Assembly: GCA_000955795.1 (NCBI GenBank)
Contig: JYOB01000008.1
Span: 244,561-308,560 of the forward strand
DNA from: Burkholderiaceae bacterium 26
GTDB taxonomy: Bacteria > Pseudomonadota > Gammaproteobacteria > Burkholderiales > Burkholderiaceae
DNA: 64,000 bases
Direction: 5' to 3'
Within the stretch, counting starts at the first letter, position 1; each line of letters begins with the position of its first letter. Shown one piece after another: positions 61 through 60,732 of this stretch. The position numbers were made by a program, and so were the translations under genes. A model generated the notes under the pieces. The model had not been told where the DNA came from, did not search any database, and saw nothing but the letters and a program-made list of their open reading frames with translations.

Positions 61-1322
61 TTCAGCACCACGCGCGCGAAGCGACGCTTGCCGACCTGCA
101 TCACGAAGGTGCCGGCATCCACCTTCAGGCCCTTATCGCTGACGACGGTGCCGTCGATCTTCACGCCGCCCTGCTCGATGTTGCGGTTGGCGTCCGACGT
201 GGACGGGCAGAGGCCAGCCTGCTTGAGCAGCTGCGCAATGCCCAGCGGCGCGCCGGCCAGTTCGATCTGCGGAATATCGTCCGGCACACCGCCGCGTGCG
301 CGGTGGTTGAAGTCTTCCAGCGCGCGTTCAGCGTCGGCCTGACTGTGGAAGCGCGCGACGATCTCCTGCGCCAGCAGCACCTTGCAGTCGCGCGGGTTGC
401 GGCCCAGCGCGATCTCCGCCTTCATCATGTCGATCTCGGCCAGCGGGCGGAACGACAGCAGCGTGTAATACGTCCACATCAGGTCGTCGGAGATGCTCAT
501 CAGCTTGCCGAACATCTCGTTCGGCGCCTCGCTGATACCGACGTAGTTGCCCTTGGACTTGGACATCTTCTCCACGCCGTCCAGGCCCACCAGCAACGGC
601 ATGGTCAAGATGCACTGCGGCTCCTGGCCGTATTCCTTCTGCAGTTCGCGACCGACCAGCAGGTTGAATTTCTGATCGGTGCCGCCGAGTTCCAGGTCGG
701 ACTTGAGCGCGACCGAGTCGTAGCCCTGCATCAGCGGGTAGAGGAATTCGTGCACCGAAATCGGCACGCCGGCCTTGTAGCGCTTGGTGAAATCGTCGCG
801 CTCCATCATGCGGGCGACGGTGTACTTGGCGGCAAGCTGGATGATGCCGCGCGCGCCCAGCGGGTCGCACCATTCGCTGTTGTAGCGAATTTCAGTCTTG
901 CTCGGGTCCAGCACCATGCTGGCTTGGCGGTAGTAAGTCTGCGCGTTGGCCTCGATCTGCTCGCGCGTGAGCGGCGGGCGCGTGGCATTGCGACCAGACG
1001 GGTCACCGATCGTCGACGTGAAATCGCCAATCAGGAAAATCACCTGGTGCCCCAGGTCCTGCAACTGGCGCATCTTGTTGAGCACCACGGTGTGGCCGAT
1101 GTGAATGTCAGGCGCCGTCGGGTCCAGGCCCAGCTTGATGCGCAGAGGCACGCCGGTCGCGGCGCTCTTGGCCAGCTTCTGCTCCCATTCGGCAGCAATC
1201 AACAGTTCGTCGCAGCCGCGCAGCGACACTTCCATTGCGTGCGCCACCTCCGGGGTAATCGGATACCTGGGTTTGGCCGGCGTGGCGTTATCGGAGGCGG
1301 CGGAAGTGTCAGGTGCAGTCAT
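57..1322 (-). CDS. tyrS: Tyrosyl-tRNA synthetase
   Basis: Class I aminoacyl-tRNA synthetase that charges tRNA-Tyr in the cytoplasm. With the start chosen at 1322 (M-T-A-P-D-T-S) the protein has 421 residues, normal for the family. The HIGH signature is at residues 74-77, KMSKS is at 252-256, and a C-terminal S4-like RNA-binding domain covers about residues 355-421. The open frame extends upstream to 1532, but that stretch is not TyrS-like and runs into the divergent anmK start, so I reject the longer form. The stop overlaps the GTG start of dtd. Confidence 0.96.
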
Positions 1323-1497
1323 GGCAAAAAGAAAGGTCACCGCGCCGCACATGGAAAACGGCGCGAACGAATCAACAATCGGGGAAACGGTGCGTGCACG
1401 ATGGCCGACATCGATTGAAACGTGCCGGCCGCGCAATCCCGGGATTTTACCGTGATGTGTCCGTTTGGCCCGCCATTGCGCTGGTAAGCTGTCGCGC

Positions 1498-2652
1498 ATG
1501 AGCCATCCCAACCGCACCGCACTCCCCAGCAACCGCTACATCGGCTTGATGTCGGGCACCAGCCTGGACGGCGTCGATGGCGTGCTGGCGGACTTTTCCG
1601 GCGAACACCCGGCCGTCCTCGCCGACGCCTACGTGCCTTTCTCGCCCGAACTGCGCCAGCGCTTTCTTGACCTGCAACACGCCGGCCCCGACGAGATCCA
1701 TCGCGAGGCCCTGGCCGCCAATGCACTGGCCATGGTCTACGCCGACTGCGTTGCCCAACTGCTTGCTTCCGCCGGTCTGGCCGCCCGCGACGTACAAGCC
1801 ATCGGCGCCCATGGGCAGACGATTCGCCATCAGCCCGGCACGCACGATGGCCTCGGCTACACGCGCCAAACCCAGCACCCGGCGGTGTTGGCTGAGCGTA
1901 CCGGCATCGACGTCATTGCCGATTTCCGCAGCCGCGACATCGCCGCCGGCGGCCAAGGCGCGCCCCTGGTACCGGCACTGCACCGCGCGCTGTTCGGCCT
2001 GCCCGACGCATGGCGCGTGGTCTGCAACATCGGAGGCATCGCCAACCTCACCGTCTTGCCCCCGCAGGCTTCAGACGCGCGCGACGCCGTACTCGGCTTC
2101 GACTGCGGCCCCGGCAATGCGCTGATGGATTACTGGGTTCACACGCACCGCGATACCCGCTATGACGCCGACGGCGCCTGGGCCCGCACCGGGCGCATCG
2201 ATGAAACGCTCCTCGCGCGTCTGAAGGCCGAGCCGTTCTTTGCAGCGCCGCCGCCCAAGAGCACCGGCCGCGACCTGTTCAACCCAGCGTGGCTGCAACA
2301 AACTCTCGGCGATGCGTTGAACACCGCCCGCCCCGAAGATGTTCAAGCGACGCTGCTCGCCCTCACCGCCGACACCATCACCGATGCCATGCGTGCCCAT
2401 GCGCCGCAGGCGGCGTCACTGTTGGTCTGCGGTGGCGGCGCCCGCAATGGTGCGCTGATGGCACGTATCGCGCAGCAATTGCCGGGCGTGCGAGTCGCTC
2501 CGACAGATGAGTTTGGCGTGCCCGCGCATCAGGTGGAGGCGCTCGCTTTCGCATGGCTCGCACGCCAGTGCGTGCTCCGCGCCCACGGCAATCTGCACAC
2601 CGCGACCGGCGCATCGGGCGGTCGCATCCTTGGCGCGATCTACCCCGCTTGA
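1498..2652 (+). CDS. anmK: Anhydro-N-acetylmuramic acid kinase
   Basis: Phosphorylates and opens 1,6-anhydro-MurNAc released from the cell wall, giving MurNAc-6-phosphate for peptidoglycan recycling. The N-terminal ATP-binding motif [12 protein letters not shown] is present, as are GAHGQT, a GGIANLT phosphate-binding region and a C-terminal VCGGGARN motif. The start at 1498 (M-S-H-P-N) gives 384 residues, close to family length. It is divergent from tyrS, and their starts are about 175 bp apart. A bidirectional terminator follows. Confidence 0.95.
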
Positions 2653-2672
2653 GCACACAATCTGCAGGCAAC

Positions 2673-2699
2673 AAAAAAGCGCACCGAAGTGCGCTTTTT
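2673..2699. terminator. Bidirectional Rho-independent terminator, anmK/erpA
   Basis: A 6-bp stem GCGCAC/GTGCGC with a CGAA loop (2679-2694) is flanked by A6 on the left and T5 on the right. It serves anmK on the plus strand and erpA on the minus strand, which converge here. Confidence 0.9.
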
Positions 2700-2718
2700 C
2701 TTTTACAGCGATGCGGCG

Positions 2719-3093
2719 TCAGACCGAGAACGACGAGCCGCAACCACACGTGGTCGAAGCATTCGGGTTCTTGATGACGAACTGCGCGCCGTTGATGTCT
2801 TCCTTGTAGTCGATCTCGGCGCCCACCAGGTACTGGTAGCTCATCGAGTCGATCAAGAGCGAGACGCCATTCTTGGTCATGGTCGTATCGTCTTCGTTGG
2901 TCTCTTCGTCAAAGGTGAAGCCGTACTGGAAGCCCGAGCACCCGCCGCCTTGCACGAATACGCGCAGCTTCAACTCCGGGTTGCCTTCTTCTTCAATCAG
3001 TTGCTTGACCTTGTCCGCAGCGCTGTCGGTAAAGACCAGCGGAGCCGGAACCTCGTTCACATCGGGCGTGGCTGCCTGGGCGACTGCGTTCAT
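2719..3093 (-). CDS. erpA: Iron-sulfur cluster insertion protein ErpA
   Basis: A-type Fe-S carrier that hands [4Fe-4S] or [2Fe-2S] clusters to apoproteins, notably isoprenoid-synthesis and respiratory enzymes. The 124-residue protein has the HesB/IscA fold signature with the three cluster ligands Cys52 ([10 protein letters not shown]), Cys116 and Cys118 (TCGCGSSFS). The N-terminal extension of about 15 residues rich in Ala, Val and Pro is typical of betaproteobacterial ErpA. It sits alone downstream of the bactofilin gene, away from any isc or suf operon. Confidence 0.93.
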
Positions 3094-3219
3094 GAAAATC
3101 TCCTGTGGGAACGTCTGAAACCTGCCTGTATTTTAAGCGCAAGCTGCAAATCGTGCCGAAGCCCCGCGTTTCAAGTGGGCATTGTGCGGTGCGCCAGCAA
3201 CGGCTAGCGCGCGATGTGA

Positions 3220-3624
3220 TCAATCCTGATTGGACGCCAGCTTCAGATTGGGCAGCAACTTCACGTCGCCAGGCGCCGCGTGCATCAACGTGCCCATGAC
3301 GACGGCGCCTTGGTGCATTTCCAACGCCGCATATTGCACGTTGCCCTCAATACGCGCCTTCGGCTGCAACTCAAGCAGCTCCGCCACATGCACGGGGCCA
3401 ACCACGGTGCCATTTAGGATCAGATGCCCGACGTGCACCTCGCCCTCGACGCGTGCGCTATCGGTAATCACCAGCATGCTGGGCTTGTCCGGATCGCCGT
3501 AGATGTTGCCGCTGATCTCGCCGTCGATCCGCAGACCGCCCGAGAAGCGCAGATTCCCTTCCAGTTTGGTGTGAGCCCCCAGCAGCGTTTCAATCGCCAG
3601 CCCTTTCTTTTTGCCAAACAGCAT
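3220..3624 (-). CDS. Bactofilin-family polymer-forming cytoskeletal protein
   Basis: A 134-residue protein. A right-handed beta-helix bactofilin core spans about residues 18-110, with short repeating strands of alternating hydrophobic and Gly/Asp residues (L-E-G-N-L, I-D-G-E-I, V-E-G-E-V, I-E-G-N-V). Bactofilins polymerise without nucleotide and act as scaffolds for cell-wall enzymes or polar structures. The short basic N-terminus (M-L-F-G-K-K-K-G-L) is typical of a membrane-binding tail. It lies 43 bp downstream of a membrane coiled-coil gene on the same strand, a likely co-transcribed partner. Confidence 0.88.
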   Translation of the reverse strand: MLFGKKKGLAIETLLGAHTKLEGNLRFSGGLRIDGEISGNIYGDPDKPSMLVITDSARVEGEVHVGHLILNGTVVGPVHVAELLELQPKARIEGNVQYAALEMHQGAVVMGTLMHAAPGDVKLLPNLKLASNQD

Positions 3625-3667
3625 CGTCGACTCCTCTGTGTACGGATCCTCGACAGGACAATGCCCG

Positions 3668-4423
3668 TCAGATGGAAAAACTCTGGCTCGCTTTGATCTT
3701 GCCGTTCTGCAGCACTTTCACCATCACCGATTGCACCGTGGTGCCGGGGGGCACGTCTACCCAGCCCTCAAGGCGCTGGTAGTGCGTGAGCTTGACGCGG
3801 GCGCTGGTAACGGGTGATCCGCTGGCCGCCGTTCCCGGGAAATCGATCGTAGCAGCTTTGCCCCCCTGCACCACGTTCAGCGTGAGCGCCAGTTGTCCCT
3901 CGAATTCAGAGACCGGTGCAAACGCCTTTCCGCCGCCTTGCATCAGCAGAACGCGGAACCGCATGCGCGTCGGCTGCGCCTCGTCCGGCGCGATGCGGAA
4001 GCTGCGCACATAAATACCGGCGGAATTGGTAGGTGCGGGCAACAGGCTGTCAAAGAAGGCTAGGTCCTCTTTCAACTGCGCGTTTTCGGTTTCCAGCGCC
4101 TTGAGTTGCTCAGCCATCTGCGCTTGCGCGCCTTCGGCAATACCCAGCCGGGCATCCACGGTGCCGGCGGATGCAGACAACTTGTCTCGCTCGGCCTGCA
4201 CGGCGGCCAACTTGGCGGTCAGCTCGCGGTTCATAGCGCGCAAATCGGCGTCGTGCGGCCCCGTCAGGCGGCGCCCTTCTTCGAAGGCCCACAGCGCCGC
4301 AGCCGCCGCAAGCCCAAATACCACGGCAATCAACAAAATCGTTACCGGCCAAGGCAGACGCGAACGCACCGTGACGTTCGGGGCGAGCACGGAAGCGCGA
4401 CGCAACAAGCGACGCGCCTTCAT
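3668..4423 (-). CDS. DUF6776-like membrane-anchored coiled-coil protein
   Basis: A 251-residue protein of unknown function. A basic N-terminus is followed by one transmembrane helix at about residues 23-46. A coiled-coil stretch rich in Ala, Glu, Leu and Gln covers about 60-125 and leads to a C-terminal domain of predicted beta content (about 130-251). The topology suggests a single-pass inner-membrane protein with the coiled coil and C-terminal domain in the periplasm. It precedes the bactofilin gene in the same direction, so it could anchor or recruit the filament; that is inference from position only. Confidence 0.7.
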   Translation of the reverse strand: MKARRLLRRASVLAPNVTVRSRLPWPVTILLIAVVFGLAAAAALWAFEEGRRLTGPHDADLRAMNRELTAKLAAVQAERDKLSASAGTVDARLGIAEGAQAQMAEQLKALETENAQLKEDLAFFDSLLPAPTNSAGIYVRSFRIAPDEAQPTRMRFRVLLMQGGGKAFAPVSEFEGQLALTLNVVQGGKAATIDFPGTAASGSPVTSARVKLTHYQRLEGWVDVPPGTTVQSVMVKVLQNGKIKASQSFSI

Positions 4424-4603
4424 GCGCGCGCCTCCCGACCCGCCTTGCGGATCAGAATCGGATTAGGAGAAACAGCGGATTGCATCATACGGGCCGAACG
4501 CTAACGAAATGTGAATTGTAGTCTCGCGGACATGTCGGAGCTGTTGCAAAGGGTAAGCGAGGGGACGAAAAGATCACCCTGTTTAGTTCGAACGCTCAAA
4601 AAC

Positions 4604-4629
4604 AAAAAACCACACCCGAGGGTGTGGTT
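4604..4629 (-). terminator. Terminator of rplM-rpsI
   Basis: A 9-bp stem AACCACACC/GGTGTGGTT (4608-4629) with a CGAG loop is followed on the minus strand by a run of T, read as A at 4604-4609. It lies just past the rpsI stop. Confidence 0.9.
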
Positions 4630-4654
4630 CTTTGCTGAAGCAGCAGGAAGCGGA

Positions 4655-5047
4655 TTAACGCTTCGAGAACTGCTTGGCGCGGCGGGCCTTGCGCAGACCG
4701 ACCTTCTTACGCTCGACTTCACGTGCATCGCGCGTCACCAGACCGGCCTTCGACAGGGCGGGCTTGAGCGTTGCATCGTAATCGATCAGGGCGCGAGTGA
4801 TGCCGTGACGCACGGCACCGGCTTGGCCGGTTTCACCGCCGCCGACCACGTTCACCTTGATGTCGAACGTAGCTGCGTGGTTGGTCAGTTCCAGCGGCTG
4901 ACGCACGATCATCAGCGAGGTTTCACGAGCGAAGTACTCGTTGATGGCCTTGCCGTTGACGATGATGTCGCCCTTGCCGGACTTGATGAAGACACGTGCC
5001 ACAGCGCTCTTGCGGCGGCCGGTGCCATAGTTCCAGTTTCCGATCAT
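4655..5047 (-). CDS. rpsI: 30S ribosomal protein S9
   Basis: Component of the small ribosomal subunit; its C-terminal tail contacts P-site tRNA. The 130-residue protein begins [14 protein letters not shown] and ends with the canonical basic tail K-R-A-K-Q-F-S-K-R seen in S9. It follows rplM by 12 bp in the conserved L13-S9 operon and is followed by a strong terminator. Confidence 0.98.
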
Positions 5048-5059
5048 GGATTAGGCCCC

Positions 5060-5488
5060 TTAGATTTCCAGCGCTTTCGGCTGCTGAGCTTCGTGCGGAT
5101 GCGAGCCTTCGGCGTAAACCTTCAGCTTCTTGATCATCGCGTAGCCCAGCGGACCCTTCGGCAGCATGCCCTTCACAGCCTTCTCCAGGGCGCGGCCCGG
5201 GAAACGCTGCTGCATCTTGCCAAACGTCGTTTCGTAGATACCGCCCGGGTAACCCGAGTGGCGATAGTACTTCTTGTCGGTCGTCTTGGCGCCCGTCACA
5301 CGCAGCTTGGCTGCGTTGATGACGATGATGAAATCGCCGGTATCGACGTGCGGAGTGAATTCGGGCTTGTGCTTGCCGCGCAGTCGGTGTGCCACTTCGC
5401 TGGCGACACGCCCGAGGACCTTGTCCGTCGCGTCAATCACGTACCAATCGCGCTTCACCTCATGGGGCTTTGCGGAAAAGGTCTTCAT
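5060..5488 (-). CDS. rplM: 50S ribosomal protein L13
   Basis: Early-assembly protein of the large ribosomal subunit. The 142-residue protein starts M-K-T-F-S-A-K and contains the family motif around [13 protein letters not shown] and the H-S-G-Y-P-G-G block. It is the first gene of the rplM-rpsI operon. The leader of about 190 nt with a structured 5' end (see the separate entries) leaves room for autogenous control, which has been reported for rplM in enterobacteria. Confidence 0.98.
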
Positions 5489-5678
5489 GATTTTTCCAAA
5501 TATTGAGTCAGTGCCCGAGTGGACCCGTATCGCGCTGAGAACTTGCGTTCAAACTGCTCACGAACGGATCGTCTTGCGGACGCCTGCGCAACCCCATGCG
5601 AGGTCATCGCCGGCCCGCCTTCCCGCTTGTTGGTGCGGGCTCTCTAAATTTCTCTTTTCCGCGGGCAATCCGGAAAAG
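5489..5678 (-). promoter_or_regulatory. Long structured 5' leader of rplM-rpsI
   Basis: About 190 nt separate the predicted transcription start (near 5678) from the rplM ATG. The leader begins with an inverted repeat (5654-5678). It also holds a GC-rich hairpin around 5604-5641, with GCCCGC/GCGGGC and nested CCCGC/GCGGG arms on the minus strand. No ORF of its own is convincing. The length and structure fit a ribosomal-protein leader, but I recognise no known L13-binding motif. Confidence 0.45.
5654..5678 (-). repeat. Inverted-repeat element, copy 1 (rplM 5' end)
   Basis: On the minus strand the arms CTTTTCCG and CGGAAAAG enclose 9 nt. The left 12 nt, CTTTTCCGGATT, recur exactly with the same right arm at 14553-14574 upstream of gltI. 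The element falls at the predicted start of the rplM transcript, so it could act as an operator or as a 5'-end RNA hairpin. Confidence 0.6.
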
Positions 5679-5684
5679 ATTTCG

Positions 5685-5714
5685 ATTGTACCCCGCACAG
5701 ACTCCTTGACACAA
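5685..5714 (-). promoter_or_regulatory. Predicted sigma-70 promoter of rplM-rpsI
   Basis: On the minus strand a TACAAT -10 box (5685-5690, 5 of 6 matches to consensus) stands 18 nt after a weak TTGTGT -35 (5709-5714). The predicted start is about 5678. Confidence 0.5.
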
Positions 5715-5744
5715 GGAAAAAGGTGCGCATGGGTCCTGCAGGCG

Positions 5745-5774
5745 AAAAAAAACCCAAGCCATCAAGCTTGGGTT
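5745..5774 (-). terminator. Terminator of the small RNA
   Basis: On the minus strand, arms AACCCAAGC and GCTTGGGTT (5751-5774) enclose a 6-nt loop and end in T8 (A8 at 5745-5752 on the plus strand). No protein gene upstream needs it, which supports an RNA gene. Confidence 0.88.
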
Positions 5775-5857
5775 TGAATCCACCAAAGGAGGAGGGTGGA
5801 GGAGACACCTGCTGATCGCTGACTTGGTGGGTTGCACCGCATCAGCCGATCCAATGG
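5745..5857 (-). ncRNA. Candidate small RNA exposing an anti-Shine-Dalgarno loop
   Basis: A stand-alone transcription unit of about 113 nt lies between osmC and rplM: a good promoter (5863-5890), no plausible ORF and a strong intrinsic terminator. The RNA can fold a 5' stem (TGCACC/GGTGCA). It also has a 5-bp hairpin, CCACC/GGUGG (5780-5799), whose 10-nt loop is CUCCUCCUUU. A further CUCCUCC precedes it. CCUCCUUU copies the 3' end of 16S rRNA that pairs with Shine-Dalgarno sites. I recall a family called betaproteobacterial toxic small RNA with this property; membership is not verified. Confidence 0.7.
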
Positions 5858-5862
5858 TGCAA

Positions 5863-5890
5863 ATTATACCCATTTCTGGGGCACGCGCAA
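5863..5890 (-). promoter_or_regulatory. Sigma-70 promoter of the small RNA
   Basis: On the minus strand a perfect TATAAT (5863-5868) is preceded at 16 nt by TTGCGC (5885-5890). The predicted start lies at about 5855-5858. It is one of the best promoter matches in the window. Confidence 0.75.
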
Positions 5891-5898
5891 GGAAATTT

Positions 5899-5925
5899 GC
5901 ACTACGAAATCGCATTTCGTAATGC
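5899..5925. promoter_or_regulatory. Palindrome 1 upstream of the small RNA promoter
   Basis: Arms TACGAAAT and ATTTCGTA flank a CGC centre (5903-5921). The symmetry extends to GCA/TGC outside, with one mismatched pair, giving a 27-bp element. It lies about 45-65 bp upstream of the predicted small RNA start, where an activator or repressor site would be expected. The cognate regulator is unknown. Confidence 0.55.
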
Positions 5926-5945
5926 GGAAAGAAAATCACGGGGCA

Positions 5946-5967
5946 ATAAATGGCGATATCCATTTAT
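5946..5967. promoter_or_regulatory. Palindrome 2 in the sRNA-osmC interval
   Basis: Perfect 8-bp arms ATAAATGG and CCATTTAT surround CGATAT. It sits in an AT-rich island about 20 bp from palindrome 1, between the divergent small RNA and osmC. Its sequence differs from palindrome 1, so a different protein is likely if it is an operator. Confidence 0.5.
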
Positions 5968-6190
5968 AAATCAGCCACTTACACTCCTTCCGCACTCAGC
6001 CATCTGCTGTTCAGTAGAGACATTCCTCGAATTTCGGCGCACTTTCGGTGCAAAAAGAATGGGTTGCACCTTTTCGCCCAGGTATCACTGTCAAGCCGCG
6101 TTCACCCTAGGGCGCCAACGCGCGCGAGGGCTGGTGGCTACAATGTGGCTTTTCGTCGGCGATGGTCGACCCTCTGCACAAGGATTGGAC
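5968..6190 (+). promoter_or_regulatory. Upstream region of the osmC-family gene
   Basis: The reading frame of the OsmC gene is open through this stretch, but the translation does not look like the family. A TACAAT box at 6139-6144 would start a transcript at about 6151, 40 nt before the ATG. No clear -35 was found. Nothing else was recognised here. Confidence 0.35.
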
Positions 6191-6637
6191 ATGGATTGCA
6201 CAGTGAGCTGGACTGGCCCGGATGGCATGGCCTTTTTGGCGGAAACCGGCAGCGGCCATCTCGTCACGATGGATGGCGCGCCCGACGGCGGCGGCCGCAA
6301 CCTTGCACCGCGCCCGATGGAAATGGTCTTGCTGGGCACCGGTGGCTGCACCGCTTATGACGTGGTGCTGATCCTCAAGCGAGGCCGCCAGGACGTGCAA
6401 GGCTGCAGCGTCAAGCTGCATGCCGACCGCGCCGAGACCGACCCGAAGGTTTTCACGCGCATCCACTTCACCTTCACGGTGACGGGGCGCAACCTGAAGC
6501 GGGAAACGGTGGAACGGGCTGTGCAGCTTTCGCACGAGAAGTACTGCTCGGCGTCGATCATGTTGGCCAAGACGGCCGAGATCACGCACTCGCTGGAACT
6601 GGTGGACTTGGCCACGCAGCCGGCGGCATCGGAATAA
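6191..6637 (+). CDS. OsmC family protein (peroxiredoxin-like)
   Basis: A 148-residue protein of the OsmC/Ohr superfamily, thiol peroxidases that reduce organic or fatty-acid hydroperoxides. The two redox cysteines are visible: Cys53 in GTGGCTAYDV and Cys119 in H-E-K-Y-C-S-A-S. The start at 6191 (M-D-C-T-V-S-W-T) removes an unrelated N-terminal extension and matches family length. It most resembles the YhfA-type OsmC branch rather than Ohr itself, so the substrate is uncertain. It converges on rnpB with only 3 bp between them. Confidence 0.85.
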   Translation: MDCTVSWTGPDGMAFLAETGSGHLVTMDGAPDGGGRNLAPRPMEMVLLGTGGCTAYDVVLILKRGRQDVQGCSVKLHADRAETDPKVFTRIHFTFTVTGRNLKRETVERAVQLSHEKYCSASIMLAKTAEITHSLELVDLATQPAASE

Positions 6638-56282: not shown

Positions 56283-57605
56283 ATGACGAAAACGCCATGG
56301 AAGCCGCAACGTGGGTCAACCCACGCGGTTACGTGCGCATGCCTGCTGCTCTGCGGCGGGCCGGTTCTCGCGCAGACCAACGAGCCGGTGGACGACAAGC
56401 CACCCAGCCTGGAAGTGCTGCAGCGCGAGCTTGCCGATACGCAGGCGCGCCTGCAGGAACTCAAGCGCTCGATCCAGCAACAGGAAACGCACTTGCGGCG
56501 CATGCGGCGCGCGCTCGGCATGAGCGAGGGCAAACTCGACACCGTGCGCGGTGCCGGTGCTCCTGGCGCTGCAGGCGACGCATCGCAAATTGCACAGAAC
56601 GACCAGCCAGGCACCATGCCTGTGGGCAAACCGCCGGAGCCGCCTGACCGGCCGCCACGCATCGCGCAGATCTTCGACGAGCCCAGCGCGCTCACACCGC
56701 CGGGCAAGGTGGTCGTCGAGCCGTCATTGCAGATGGCGTATTCGTCGTCCGACCGCGTGGCGCTGGTGGGCTACACCATCATCCCCGCGCTGCTGATCGG
56801 GCTGATCGACGTACGGCAGGTCAAAACGACCACGCTCACCGGCACGGTTGCGTTGCGTTACGGCCTGGCGCGGCGCTGGGAACTGGAAGCGCGCGTGCCC
56901 TATGTCTACAGCGCCAGCGACACCGTCAGCCGCGAACTGTTCACCGGCACGGCGACAGACAACGCATTCAGCTCGCACGGGCGCGGCATTGGCGATGTGG
57001 AACTGACCGCGCGCTACCAGATCAATGCGGGCGGCGTCGACAAGCCGTTCTACATCGGCTGGCTGCGCTTCAAGACGCGCACCGGCAAGGATCCGTTTGA
57101 CGTCACCACCGATTGCGTGACGCGCTGCGTAAGCAATACCACGGGTACCGGCCTGCCTCTGCAGCAGCCCACGGGCTCGGGCTTCTTCGCCGTTCAGCCG
57201 GGGCTGACGTGGCTGTTCCCGACAGACCCGGCCGTGTTCTTCGGCAGCATCAGCTACCTGCACAACTTCGAGCGCAAGGACGTGAGCCTGAACCTGGTGG
57301 ACGGTTCGAAACAGTTCCTGGGCAACGTGAAGGCCGGCGACATCATCGGCCTGAACTTCGGCATGGGGCTGGCGCTGAACGAGAAGGCATCGTTCTCGAT
57401 TGGCTACGACCAGAGCATCATCGCGCCCACCAAGCAGAACGGCCAGCGCGTGCCGGGCTCGGTGCGGACGATTCTGGGGACGTTGCTGGTCGGCTATTCG
57501 TACCGCCTCTCGCCCAAGATGTCGCTGAACCTGTCGGTGGGGGCAGGCTTGACGCGCGACACGCCGGACCTGACCGTCACGCTTCGCCTGCCGATCCAGT
57601 TCTAG
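56283..57605 (+). CDS. FapF-like outer-membrane channel with N-terminal coiled coil
   Basis: A 440-residue secreted protein. The signal peptide covers residues 1-30 (cleavage after L-A). A coiled coil at about 42-80 (L-E-V-L-Q-R-E-L-A-D-T-Q-A-R-L-Q-E-L-K-R) leads through a Pro-rich linker to a beta-barrel at about 135-440, starting P-P-G-K-V-V-V-E-P-S and ending in R-L-P-I-Q-F, with the terminal Phe of outer-membrane proteins. Family resemblance is to FapF, the amyloid exporter of Pseudomonas. It converges on the minus-strand operon of secreted proteins; the stops are 1 bp apart. TATAGT at 56192-56197 is a weak promoter candidate. Confidence 0.8.
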   Translation: MTKTPWKPQRGSTHAVTCACLLLCGGPVLAQTNEPVDDKPPSLEVLQRELADTQARLQELKRSIQQQETHLRRMRRALGMSEGKLDTVRGAGAPGAAGDASQIAQNDQPGTMPVGKPPEPPDRPPRIAQIFDEPSALTPPGKVVVEPSLQMAYSSSDRVALVGYTIIPALLIGLIDVRQVKTTTLTGTVALRYGLARRWELEARVPYVYSASDTVSRELFTGTATDNAFSSHGRGIGDVELTARYQINAGGVDKPFYIGWLRFKTRTGKDPFDVTTDCVTRCVSNTTGTGLPLQQPTGSGFFAVQPGLTWLFPTDPAVFFGSISYLHNFERKDVSLNLVDGSKQFLGNVKAGDIIGLNFGMGLALNEKASFSIGYDQSIIAPTKQNGQRVPGSVRTILGTLLVGYSYRLSPKMSLNLSVGAGLTRDTPDLTVTLRLPIQF

Positions 57606-57606
57606 C

Positions 57607-58140
57607 TCAGTGCAGCATGGTGACGACGTTGGCCAACGCGCCTTGTAGCACGTTGGCCAGATTCATCTGACGGAATTGCGGCAGGCTGTTGACCGCCGCA
57701 TTGATGGTCGTCACCGCCTGCAGCGTCTGGTTGTTCAGGCTGTTCTGGATGACCGTGGCCGCCGTTGCCGCGCCCGCGGTCACATCGGGCGGTGCGACAT
57801 TGTTGGGGCCGTTCTGCACGAGGTTGACCGTGTTGACCACCGAGGCCAATTGCTGCGCCTGGGTGGCCGTCATGCGTGCCACATCCGGAATGTTGACCGA
57901 TGCGCTTGCCACCAGATCGCCGTTGACGTAGACCGCCCGGTCGATGCCGAACGAGATGTGCAGCCCTGCGAGCGAGGGCACATCAAACCCGCCGCGCATG
58001 TCGTCGAGCTTGTCTTCGGACACGGCGCGCCACGCATGGACGGGATTGTTATCCATGCCATCCATGCCGGCAGCAAACGCATGCCCGGCCGCAGCCAGCG
58101 CGAACCACCCGGCCCACGCCATCTTGCCAAACCGCTTCAT
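57607..58140 (-). CDS. Secreted protein with double-glycine motif, C39-linked (small subunit 2)
   Basis: A 177-residue protein with no recognised name. The signal peptide is residues 1-24 (cleavage after F-A-A). After it comes V-S-E-D-K-L-D-D-M-R-G-G (residues 40-51), which fits the double-glycine leader consensus cut by C39 peptidases. The rest is Asn, Val and Ala-rich with a T-V-I-Q-N-S-L-N-N-Q-T-L repeat-like segment near 129-140, similar in style to the other secreted proteins of the operon. Good ribosome site (GGAGG). Last gene of the operon; it converges on the FapF-like gene. Confidence 0.72.
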   Translation of the reverse strand: MKRFGKMAWAGWFALAAAGHAFAAGMDGMDNNPVHAWRAVSEDKLDDMRGGFDVPSLAGLHISFGIDRAVYVNGDLVASASVNIPDVARMTATQAQQLASVVNTVNLVQNGPNNVAPPDVTAGAATAATVIQNSLNNQTLQAVTTINAAVNSLPQFRQMNLANVLQGALANVVTMLH

Positions 58141-58183
58141 GATGCCCTCCTGCCGGACTACCGGACTGCCATGCAGACGATGC

Positions 58184-58867
58184 TCAGAAATCGGACGGAC
58201 CGTGCTTGGGAACGACGATGTTTCCCAAGCCACTGCGGTCCATGCCCTCCTCCAGCGGCGCACGCGGTGCCACGCGCCAATCCGATGCGGCGTTGAACGT
58301 CGCCCCCGCCTCGCGGTTGTGGACGACGAACAGCAAATGGTTGTCCCACATGCTCTCGAAACTCGCACGCGGGATCGCACGCGTGCCCATGGCCGGATCG
58401 CCCACCAGCACACGCCCCTCCTGCACGCCCTTGACCACCACGAAGTGGTGATAGCCGTTTTCGGTCAACAGCACGATGGCCGGCAAGTGGGCGTCCTTCA
58501 ACGCATCCAGCGGCTGCTCGAAACCATCGGCCTCAAAGCCTACAGACGCCAGATAGCGTTTGATGTCGAGCAGCGAAAACCCTTCTCGCCGGATCTTCTC
58601 CTGGTTGCCATGCTCGTACATGGCCTGGAACACGGTCTGCTCGCTCACCGGATAGCCGTACTGATACGTAAGCAGCGTCGCCACCGCGGCCGACCCGCAA
58701 CTGAAGTCGAAACGCTGATGCACGGTACGCAGATAGCGCGCGGCCTTCATGCTCGTCACGGGCACGGCATACGTGCCGCCGCCCGTGCCGAGCATGTCGA
58801 TCGCGCCCGCCAACGCGGGCCCGCACATCAGTGCCATCAGCATTGCACCGCACGTCTTGCGCATCAT
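58184..58867 (-). CDS. Secreted C39-family cysteine peptidase (FapD-like)
   Basis: A 227-residue peptidase. The signal peptide is about residues 1-21. The C39 fold carries the oxyanion Gln51 and catalytic Cys57 in H-Q-R-F-D-F-S-C-G-S-A-A, His141 in G-Y-H-H-F-V-V-V-K-G and Asp157 in V-G-D-P-A-M-G. No ABC transporter domain is attached, unlike bacteriocin exporters. A lone periplasmic C39 peptidase beside a FapF-like pore is the arrangement of FapD in Fap systems. The start at 58867 follows a GAAGGA site; an in-frame GTG at 58879 is an alternative. The operon places it between its two likely substrates. Confidence 0.83.
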   Translation of the reverse strand: MMRKTCGAMLMALMCGPALAGAIDMLGTGGGTYAVPVTSMKAARYLRTVHQRFDFSCGSAAVATLLTYQYGYPVSEQTVFQAMYEHGNQEKIRREGFSLLDIKRYLASVGFEADGFEQPLDALKDAHLPAIVLLTENGYHHFVVVKGVQEGRVLVGDPAMGTRAIPRASFESMWDNHLLFVVHNREAGATFNAASDWRVAPRAPLEEGMDRSGLGNIVVPKHGPSDF

Positions 58868-58883
58868 TCCGTCCTTCACAAGC

Positions 58884-59318
58884 TCAAGGCCGGAACTGCA
58901 CGTTGACGATGGTGGCGTTCTGGATCAGCACGTTCGCTCCGCTGTTCTGGATGACCGTGGGGATCCCGCTGGCGTTGGCAAACGAGCCGTCGCGCACGAT
59001 GTTCGACCCCGTCGCCACATTCACGGCGGCGTTGTCGCTCACGGTGCCGGACAGGCGCGCGTCATTGACGGTCTGGTAGAGATCCTGCGTGCCGCCGCGA
59101 TAGCTGTCGAGCCGATCTGCACCTACCGCATGACCGAACCCAGGCACCGACACGGCCGCGGCGACCGGGGGACGCACCGCTTCCGTATTGGCTGTCTGAG
59201 CACCGTCTGCGATTGACGCATCGTCCGCCGCCATCGCCGCTGCCGCTGGCCACACTGCCAGGCCGCATGCCAACCACCATGCCGCCCATCCTGCTGTGGT
59301 TCTTCTGTCGGATCGCAT
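58884..59318 (-). CDS. Secreted protein with double-glycine motif, C39-linked (small subunit 1)
   Basis: A 144-residue protein. The signal peptide is about residues 1-31 (A-A-A-A-M-A-A). The motif V-G-A-D-R-L-D-S-Y-R-G-G (65-76) matches the double-glycine leader pattern with Leu at -7 and a hydrophobic residue at -4. The mature part ends in S-G-I-P-T-V-I-Q-N-S-G-A-N-V-L-I-Q-N-A (117-135), an Asn/Gln repeat-like strand pattern seen in amyloid subunits. It has a good ribosome site (AGGAGA). No known name; possibly a minor subunit or nucleator. Confidence 0.7.
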   Translation of the reverse strand: MRSDRRTTAGWAAWWLACGLAVWPAAAAMAADDASIADGAQTANTEAVRPPVAAAVSVPGFGHAVGADRLDSYRGGTQDLYQTVNDARLSGTVSDNAAVNVATGSNIVRDGSFANASGIPTVIQNSGANVLIQNATIVNVQFRP

Positions 59319-59442
59319 CGAATGTCTCCTATACGCTCCAACTGCGGGCCGGACCACGGATGCGGTCCGGCCCAGTCCACCGCCATGCGCGCAACGTCAC
59401 CGCACGCGCAGCGGCACTTCCCCGCTCACACCCGATGTCGGC

Positions 59443-60732
59443 TCAATGGCCGACATTCAGGTTGGCCTGCACGTTGACGCTTTGTTGGACGAGAGATGCG
59501 AAGCCGCTATTCTGGTTCGCAATCATCACCCCGGCAGCGGACTGGCCGACACTGGTCATGGCGTTGGACATGTTGAACGTGCCTGCGTCCACCATGACCG
59601 TACCGCCTGCACCGCCGGTGCCACCCACCGCACCGTTGCCGACACCGCCATTGCCCACGCCGCCTGCACCGCCGGCCGCACCGACTGCACCCACAGCGCC
59701 ATTGCCCGCCGTGGACGATGCTGCGCCGTTGGTCGCGCTGCCGTTGGTCGCGCTGCCGCCTGCGCCGCCATTGCCTGCCACGTTGGTAGCTGCACCGCCA
59801 GCGCCTGCCCCGCCACCCGTGCTGGTGCCGGTGGCACTGCTCGAGCCCGTGCCCGCACCAGCGGACGCCGTTGACGTACCGCTGGTGGTGGAGCCGCCAG
59901 CGCCGCCTGCACCGCCTGCCGAGGCACTGCCGCCACCCGTGGCTGCGCCGCTGCCGTGATGGCGGTTCGCATCGCCACCGCTGGCGCTGGACGTGCCGCC
60001 TGCCCCGCCGCCACCGCCGCCAGCTGCGCTCGTGCTGCCCGCTGCGCCGCCAAGGCCCGCGCCCAGACTGGCCGAGAGCGTGCCGGAGCTGCCGCCGTTA
60101 CCGCCGCTGCCAGCACTGCCGCCCGCATCTCCGCCATTGCCGCCGTTGCCGGCCACTGCGCCGCCGTTGGTCGCGCTGCCATGCGTGACGCTGCCCGAGC
60201 TGCCGCCCGCGCCACCACTGCCACCTGCGCCGCCAGCGCCACCGTTGCCGCCAGCGCCTGTGCCGCCATAGCCGTATCCGCCACGCCCGCCCGCGCCGCC
60301 ATTGGCCGAGCCGCCATTGTTGGTGGCGATATTGCCAATGCCTGACACGCTGATGTTGGTGACGGTGCCGTCCAGCTTCGAGACTGCAATTGCCTTGCTT
60401 GTGTTGAAGGAGTTGGTGAATGTTGCTGTTGCCATACCGCCGTTGTTGGCGGCGGCGGTGCCATAGCCGTCTGCGTTGGCCCAGCCGCTGTTGTCGCGGT
60501 TGCTGCCCTGGCTTTGGTTGTTGTGTTGATTCGAGTTATCGGTTGCCGTCGTGGTTGTGGTGGTTGCGGTGTTCGTCGTCGTGTCTGTGCTGGTGTTGGT
60601 TCTGTTGATAGTCGACGTATTGGTTTGGGTCTTGTCACCCGCACCGGACGCCGTGTTCCCGATGTCGGCCAATGCAACGCCAGAGACCCCCAATCCCATG
60701 GCGATCGCGGTGGCCAGTAAGGTCTTCTTCAT
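59443..60732 (-). CDS. Gly/Ala/Asn-rich secreted protein, candidate surface fibre subunit
   Basis: A 429-residue protein. The signal peptide is residues 1-22 (M-K-K-T-L-L-A-T-A-I). A Thr/Asn-rich region covers about 35-75 and a more normal stretch 80-135. A low-complexity Gly-Gly-Ala/Ser/Asn region of about 235 residues (140-375) resembles PE-PGRS or silk. The C-terminal 54 residues carry A-G-V-M-I-A-N-Q-N-S-G-F-A-S-L-V-Q-Q-S. I see no Cys. It is the first gene after the sigma-54 promoter and the likely major product, by analogy with FapC/FapB; the sequence itself is not clearly homologous. Confidence 0.75.
   Translation of the reverse strand: MKKTLLATAIAMGLGVSGVALADIGNTASGAGDKTQTNTSTINRTNTSTDTTTNTATTTTTTATDNSNQHNNQSQGSNRDNSGWANADGYGTAAANNGGMATATFTNSFNTSKAIAVSKLDGTVTNISVSGIGNIATNNGGSANGGAGGRGGYGYGGTGAGGNGGAGGAGGSGGAGGSSGSVTHGSATNGGAVAGNGGNGGDAGGSAGSGGNGGSSGTLSASLGAGLGGAAGSTSAAGGGGGGAGGTSSASGGDANRHHGSGAATGGGSASAGGAGGAGGSTTSGTSTASAGAGTGSSSATGTSTGGGAGAGGAATNVAGNGGAGGSATNGSATNGAASSTAGNGAVGAVGAAGGAGGVGNGGVGNGAVGGTGGAGGTVMVDAGTFNMSNAMTSVGQSAAGVMIANQNSGFASLVQQSVNVQANLNVGH

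Follow-up and report, generated by a model that had tools for sequence, protein, structure and literature searches.

A Fap-related five-gene locus in Burkholderiaceae bacterium 26 with a double-glycine-leader-like block in its small secreted proteins

The fapABCDEF operon of Pseudomonas encodes a functional amyloid together with a C39-type peptidase, FapD, and a coiled-coil barrel exporter, FapF. For Pseudomonas sp. UK4, the passages on processing in PMC5557850 place FapD in the periplasm, report that FapC secretion depends on its Cys and that N-terminal peptides of FapE were not seen by mass spectrometry, and consider that the FapF linker is possibly processed; the FapD target was there called unclear (2017). 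In a 2018 review (PMC6173800) the FapD substrate is described as yet to be determined, and fapD-fapF pairs are mentioned for five more phyla, for which the section on evolution gives no subunits. A 2013 survey (PMC3792158) lists R. pickettii among the organisms that carry fap, together with some Burkholderia, counts loss of fapA among the commonest operon deviations and states that FapD and FapF models reach far wider families, with 96% and 69% false positives, respectively. Here we report on a five-gene locus in Burkholderiaceae bacterium 26 (GCA_000955795.1, contig JYOB01000008.1, positions 244,561 to 308,560; this whole stretch of 64,000 nucleotides is referred to as the window), with genes for a barrel exporter (F), a C39 peptidase (D), two small secreted proteins (S1 and S2) and a Gly-rich secreted protein (G).

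Our data suggest that the locus probably encodes a Fap-related export system for surface proteins, which probably form fibres, and that D would cut S1 and S2 at a conserved block before export via F. The block, present in S1, S2 and often F, is new here and was absent from the initial annotation of the window. The parts are known in kind; neither the subunit set nor a leader register shared across these families came up in searches of the open literature (subscription papers and preprints lay outside them), and these searches gave no answer to the FapD substrate question later than 2018.

The gene set and its proteins

The observation of a five-gene locus was confirmed, all five open reading frames being borne out in place: a minus-strand operon, G-S1-D-S2, is faced by F on the plus strand, and the ends of F and S2 are one base apart. 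Genome-wide family searches of the host genome (5.68 Mb) gave a single C39 gene and a single FapF-type gene, and thus no canonical fap was found there. Signal peptides were assessed using a home-made score and by eye.

In a sample of 150 genomes from the GTDB family, bits against the NCBIfam FapD profile cleanly divide the stand-alone peptidases into a class taken as FapD (190-213 bits) and the class of D (130-148 bits), with weaker matches mostly within long transporter frames. D's class is present in 35 of the 150 genomes, the FapD class in 47 and both in 16; within the genus of the window the numbers are 14/14 for D's class and 7/14 for the FapD class. In phmmer searches, every one of the 35 loci of D's class, the window included, has the order G-S1-D-S2-F, with G cut by a contig end in several. 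S1 is present in exactly these 35 genomes, and S2 and F of D's class in 37, i.e. the same 35 plus G069 and G131, where the match is at a contig start. The named loci are the 80 best out of 352; 75 of them have the full quartet of S1, D, S2 and F, and 76 have G. In the five loci without a full quartet the fetched stretch ended before all genes were seen: three of these lie at contig starts, and the other two, which are divergent, show no D or S2 within 6 kb. Across the phylum, a FapF-type match was obtained in 42 of 398 genomes. Outside the family, 12 of the 13 loci in the 126-175 bit tier were fetched (G492 was left out), and 11 of these 12 have D, S1 and S2 nearby; in L129 and L134 the assignment of S1 was made by eye, as was that of G in several loci. 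Genera holding the set include Ralstonia, Cupriavidus, Burkholderia, Paraburkholderia, Pseudoxanthomonas, Lysobacter, Rhodanobacter, Luteibacter and others. The co-occurrence is more than chance, and the expectation in the initial annotation that the five genes are linked in related genomes was borne out within Burkholderiaceae and beyond.

D (positions 58184-58864, minus strand, ATG start) is a predicted secreted, FapD-like C39 cysteine peptidase, in agreement with the first assignment. It scores 84 bits against Pfam Peptidase_C39 (cut-off 22) and 135.6 bits against NCBIfam FapD, which is under the curated cut-off of 330, a value exceeded in none of the 150 family genomes, FapD class included. 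Cys56, His139/140 and Asp156 are invariant across all 21 aligned rows, and its closest relatives of solved structure are peptidase domains of the double-glycine type. The peptidase tree comprises 90 rows, with 56 of D's class, four Fil-type and 27 FapD rows (including all 20 from Burkholderiaceae); two other C39 rows and two ATP-binding cassette (ABC) rows were left out. D's class plus Fil is separated from all 27 FapD rows with support 98/99, and the FapD rows do not form one clade. D does not group with FapD but with Fil. As a branch of its own, D's class has support 51/11 with Fil beside it in this tree and 88/91 in a tree with 2 of the 20 Burkholderiaceae FapD rows; the branching order of D's class and Fil, including whether Fil nests inside, is not resolved by these sequences. 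Since D's class occurs beside a FapD-class system in 16 genomes and lies on a separate branch, D's system is a sister lineage of Fap and not a drifted fap operon. The "divergent Fap-type system" of the initial annotation therefore stands as regards kinship with Fap, but not as regards drift from it.

Fil, a putative pilus system (NCBIfam FilB and FilC), likewise has a C39 peptidase beside a FapF-related barrel. The window set does not, however, reach its curated cut-offs (D against FilB, 126.8 bits, cut-off 475; FilC match, 56.2 bits, cut-off 630), and the four Fil-type loci hold two further large secreted proteins and no S1, S2 or G matches.

F (positions 56283-57605, plus strand, 440 amino acids) consists of a coiled-coil helix (residues 43-77), the block LDTVRGA at its end (85-91), a disordered linker and a beta barrel (approximately 143-440). 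It matches NCBIfam FapF with 155 bits over positions 23-420; the cut-off of 700 was also missed by 18 of 25 better-scoring matches in the phylum search. Pfam Phenol_MetA_deg gave 28 bits. With a profile of 21 relatives of F, FapF crystal structures were the only significant PDB matches (E 6e-39 to 3e-37; next 0.36). The AlphaFold2 model (predicted local distance difference test, pLDDT, 67; predicted template modelling score, pTM, 0.58) has an N-terminal helix, a disordered linker and a barrel, and in a Foldseek search against PDB its top 18 chains were all FapF (template modelling score, TMt, 0.77-0.85; 26-28% identity), with the COG4313 channel 4rl8 as the next fold (E 1e-12 compared to 1e-21 for FapF). 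From its sequence and modelled fold, F is a predicted FapF-type exporter with coiled coil and barrel, and the original proposal is thereby substantiated. Seven distant members (L126, L127, L129, L131 and L133-L135) have a short F of 331-371 amino acids, seemingly without the N-terminal coiled coil, and the block is in none of them; in L131 the FapF-type barrel is of F's class (457 bits), and S1, S2 and D were not detected in the 17 kb fetched.

The three predicted secreted proteins S1 (58884-59318, 144 amino acids), S2 (57607-58140, 177 amino acids) and G (59443-60732, 429 amino acids), all on the minus strand, matched no Pfam or NCBIfam family in any of the 21 members searched for each, which agrees with the new subunit set originally noted. 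Profile comparison (hhalign) of S2 with FapE gave 92.8% and E 3.9e-7 over 49 columns spanning the block and the strand after it, and by this measure S2 appears as a distant FapE relative. S1 and S2 are alike (96.8%), and S1 also resembles FapB (78%, full profiles) and FapE (75%). G is 29% Gly overall and 42% in residues 141-385, contains no Cys, has a C-terminus, QNSGFASLVQQSVNVQANL, that is conserved in the alignment and resembles the C-terminus of S1 (78.6%), and is a candidate main fibre subunit. G rows of 300 amino acids or less, which are at contig ends, were excluded from the full-profile comparison. A likeness of G to FapC (59.6%) was not counted, since it covers only columns 2-25, i.e. 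the signal peptide. None of the three matched FapA (S1 1.3%, S2 2.2%, G 0.3%). Hence, the statement that the subunits bear no obvious similarity to FapA, FapB or FapC holds for FapA, while the weak S1-FapB likeness and the S2-FapE match speak against a set wholly unlike Fap. A tandem pair of G genes is present in L041, L047, L049, L065 and L066.

A hidden Markov model (HMM) of the Fap repeat was built from FapB and FapC, with FapE as positive control (6.2 bits). The median score of S1 was 3.0 bits, with 10.6 as the highest value, compared with -1.8 and 5.4 for shuffled sequences, and nothing was detected in S2, or in G except for L127 (8.6 bits). By hhalign against the repeat, the C-termini of G and S1 gave 4.0% and 25%, respectively. 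These values weakly suggest that S1 may hold one distant Fap repeat.

The locus thus shares with Fap the FapF-fold exporter with its coiled coil, the secreted C39 peptidase, the D-E-F order with a FapE-like protein, secreted Asn/Gln-rich subunits and, in many genomes, one co-directional operon. It differs in having no FapA match and, in place of a FapB/FapC pair with clear repeats, the Gly-rich G and the small S1; moreover, D is on a separate branch, F is on the other strand in the window's genus, and the block of the FapE-like S2 has Gly-Gly where canonical FapE has Gly-Lys/Arg. For comparison, 20 of the 47 FapD-class loci were fetched; D and F are present in all 20, and simple patterns picked out FapE in 19 and FapA in 14, while FapB and FapC were picked by position.

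A double-glycine-leader-like block

S1 and S2 both have, following the signal peptide and ahead of the core, a block with a hydrophobic residue at -12, Leu at -7 and Gly-Gly at -2/-1, a register that we take to be that of the double-glycine leaders of C39 transporters. In the window, 76 residues of S1 extend through the end of VGADRLDSYRGG and 68 follow, while in S2 51 residues extend through the end of VSEDKLDDMRGG, followed by 126. Among 107 distinct S1 sequences the block ends in RGG (81), SGG (14), TGG (5), CGG (1), RGA (1) or Gly-Arg (5); because 20 of the 107 have SGG, TGG or CGG, the glycines and not the Arg are the constant part. Gly-Gly/Ala is present at -2/-1 in 102/107 S1 and 105/105 S2, and all 105 S2 read [LM]x3RGG. 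The strict pattern, hydrophobic-x4-L-x3-[RSTC]-G-[GA], was found in 97/107 S1, 103/105 S2 and 64/109 F, compared with 0/95 D, 3/105 G and 51/1752 background open reading frames. At the end of the coiled coil, 80 of 109 F have L-x3-R-G-[GATSM]. The part of S1 before the block end, signal peptide included, varies between 38 and 135 residues and the part after it between 63 and 76, which is what a removable leader would give. S2 is variable on either side of the block end (40-471 before and 117-335 after).

In canonical Fap the strict pattern is present in 0/28 FapC, 3/27 FapB, 1/20 FapA and 0/21 FapE. When FapE was picked by position alone in 28 loci, 24 had the block, here with Lys/Arg at -1 followed by Tyr/Phe at +1. 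The four exceptions are L069, which reads TGKH, and L071, L084 and L123, where the pick was a wrong frame or gene. The 26/26 FapE with block in another sample partly reflect picks made by the block itself. FapA was considered as a common substrate, since that of L122 reads LGDADFARVSGG by eye, and was rejected on the basis of the 1/20 with the strict pattern and of the peptides reported along all of FapA in the mass spectrometry part of Rouse 2017.

In three Fil-type loci (L227, L228 and L230) the secreted protein encoded just upstream of the C39 gene has, by eye, Leu/Met-x3-Thr-Gly-Gln in a similar register. The C39 domains of ABC exporters such as PCAT1 and ComA share the catalytic domain with D and, presumably, the leader register; they differ in that D is stand-alone with a signal peptide and no fused transporter, and its candidate substrates have a Sec signal peptide ahead of the leader.

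An extra small secreted gene (123-172 amino acids) with LxRQRGG, outside the described fapABCDEF set, lies upstream of fapA in 10 of 20 Burkholderiaceae fap operons (L069, L071-L075, L077-L079 and L083). These proteins were selected by RGG, which makes the pattern in 10/10 circular, and L076 was excluded as a false pick.

Proposed processing and alternatives

We consider it probable that the system works as follows. The five proteins would reach the periplasm via Sec, as suggested by their signal peptides, and F would form an outer-membrane channel with a periplasmic coiled coil. Periplasmic D would cut S1 and S2 after the block, removing the leader and freeing short Asn/Gln-rich C-terminal cores, and in many genomes, including that of the window, may in addition cleave F where the coiled coil meets the linker. 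The S1 and S2 cores and G would then pass through F and assemble outside, with G as the putative main subunit and S1 and S2 as minor, starter or capping subunits. If so, the repeated cut-site signature suggests which proteins a FapD-type protease cuts. Since two of the proteins have a clear candidate site and FapE has a variant of it, the FapD substrate question becomes directly testable. The system is also a further, widespread candidate for a matrix or fibre, and its Gly-rich subunit falls into no known family.

Several observations weigh against this proposal. G lacks the block, and F has L-x3-RAG in 8/109, a shifted block in 8/109 and none in 13/109 (including other-family forms without coiled coil). 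FapE and five distant S1 (L127, L129, L133, L134 and L135) have Lys or Arg at -1, and we know of no C39 peptidase that would be expected to accept these residues there; given this and the strict pattern in 0/21 FapE, the scissile bond is not fixed. S1 and S2 are apparently homologous, so that their common block may reflect ancestry and not a site. By hhalign and the repeat HMM, no FapB/FapC subunits with clear Fap repeats were found in the set (none in the C-terminus of G, weak in S1), and the AlphaFold2 model of S2 was poor (pLDDT 45) and not used.

An unlikely but serious alternative is that the block is a docking or folding element, with D acting on it as a chaperone or the block serving F, and that the peptidase activity of D is directed elsewhere. 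The Lys/Arg at -1 in FapE and in the five S1 would fit this, as would the Phe/Tyr right after the block, which is also conserved in S2 and FapE. The register is, however, what we take to be that of the C39 transporter leaders, and S1 varies in length before the block and not after it; the sections of Rouse 2017 on FapE and FapD moreover describe loss of the FapE N-terminus and a need for the FapD cysteine. That the S1 and S2 cores are diffusible, bacteriocin- or signal-like peptides and G an unrelated surface protein appears improbable. Bacteriocins and pheromones typically have double-glycine leaders, and the S1 core is only 63-76 amino acids, but D is the sole C39 match in the genome, meaning that no C39-type ABC exporter was found, and in the window the locus is flanked by queF and an acyl-CoA ligase gene (no search was made for an immunity gene). 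Moreover, S1 resembles FapB and its C-terminus that of G, and G is itself present in nearly all named loci.

We disfavour, as more improbable still, an ordinary divergent member of canonical fap: F and D match the FapF and FapD models, S2 is FapE-like and the family's own FapD class also falls under the curated cut-off, yet D stands apart from every FapD row, the two classes coexist in 16 genomes, and neither a FapA match nor a Fap repeat in the C-terminus of G was found. Finally, an uptake porin of the COG4313/Phenol_MetA_deg kind with neighbours unrelated to export, as might be read from the 28 bits to that Pfam family and from 4rl8 as next fold, is hardly credible given the lead of FapF by fold, its position as sole significant PDB match by sequence and the strict linkage of F to D, S1 and S2. 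The interpretation in the initial annotation of an exporter, a peptidase, new subunits and a co-occurring set is accordingly retained, with corrections as to canonical drift, layout and unlikeness to Fap.

Returning to cleavage by D, we tentatively extend it to a general periplasmic double-glycine maturation, although we hold this wider scheme with less than even confidence. Fap, the window system and Fil might share stand-alone C39 peptidases for hydrophobic-x4-Leu-x4-Gly-x leaders on Sec-exported proteins; the leaders would restrain amyloid-prone cores (S1, S2/FapE), and a cut of the exporter between coiled coil and barrel would, in many genomes, set the gate. The window system would then be the most canonical (Gly-Gly), with a Gly-rich main subunit unrelated to FapC.

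Layouts and neighbourhood

In the window, F lies downstream of queF. A promoter scan of the locus found none, and predicted terminators were not in excess (5 compared with 4.5 in shuffles). The initial annotation regarded the split layout as a distinguishing feature. F is indeed opposite the operon, but two layouts are common and this is one of them: in 50 of the 80 named loci all five genes are co-directional, F is convergent as in the window in 24, and in one only G is absent. The 11 loci of the 126-175 bit tier with D, S1 and S2 nearby comprise seven convergent, three co-directional and one divergent. With 24/80 named and 7/12 distant loci convergent, a split layout is nothing unusual among such systems. 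The closest named loci are from Ralstonia, including R. pickettii SSH4, with 97-98% identity in F. In L133, two tandem copies of the S2-D-S1-G operon lie opposite one F, at 1110-6493 relative to F.

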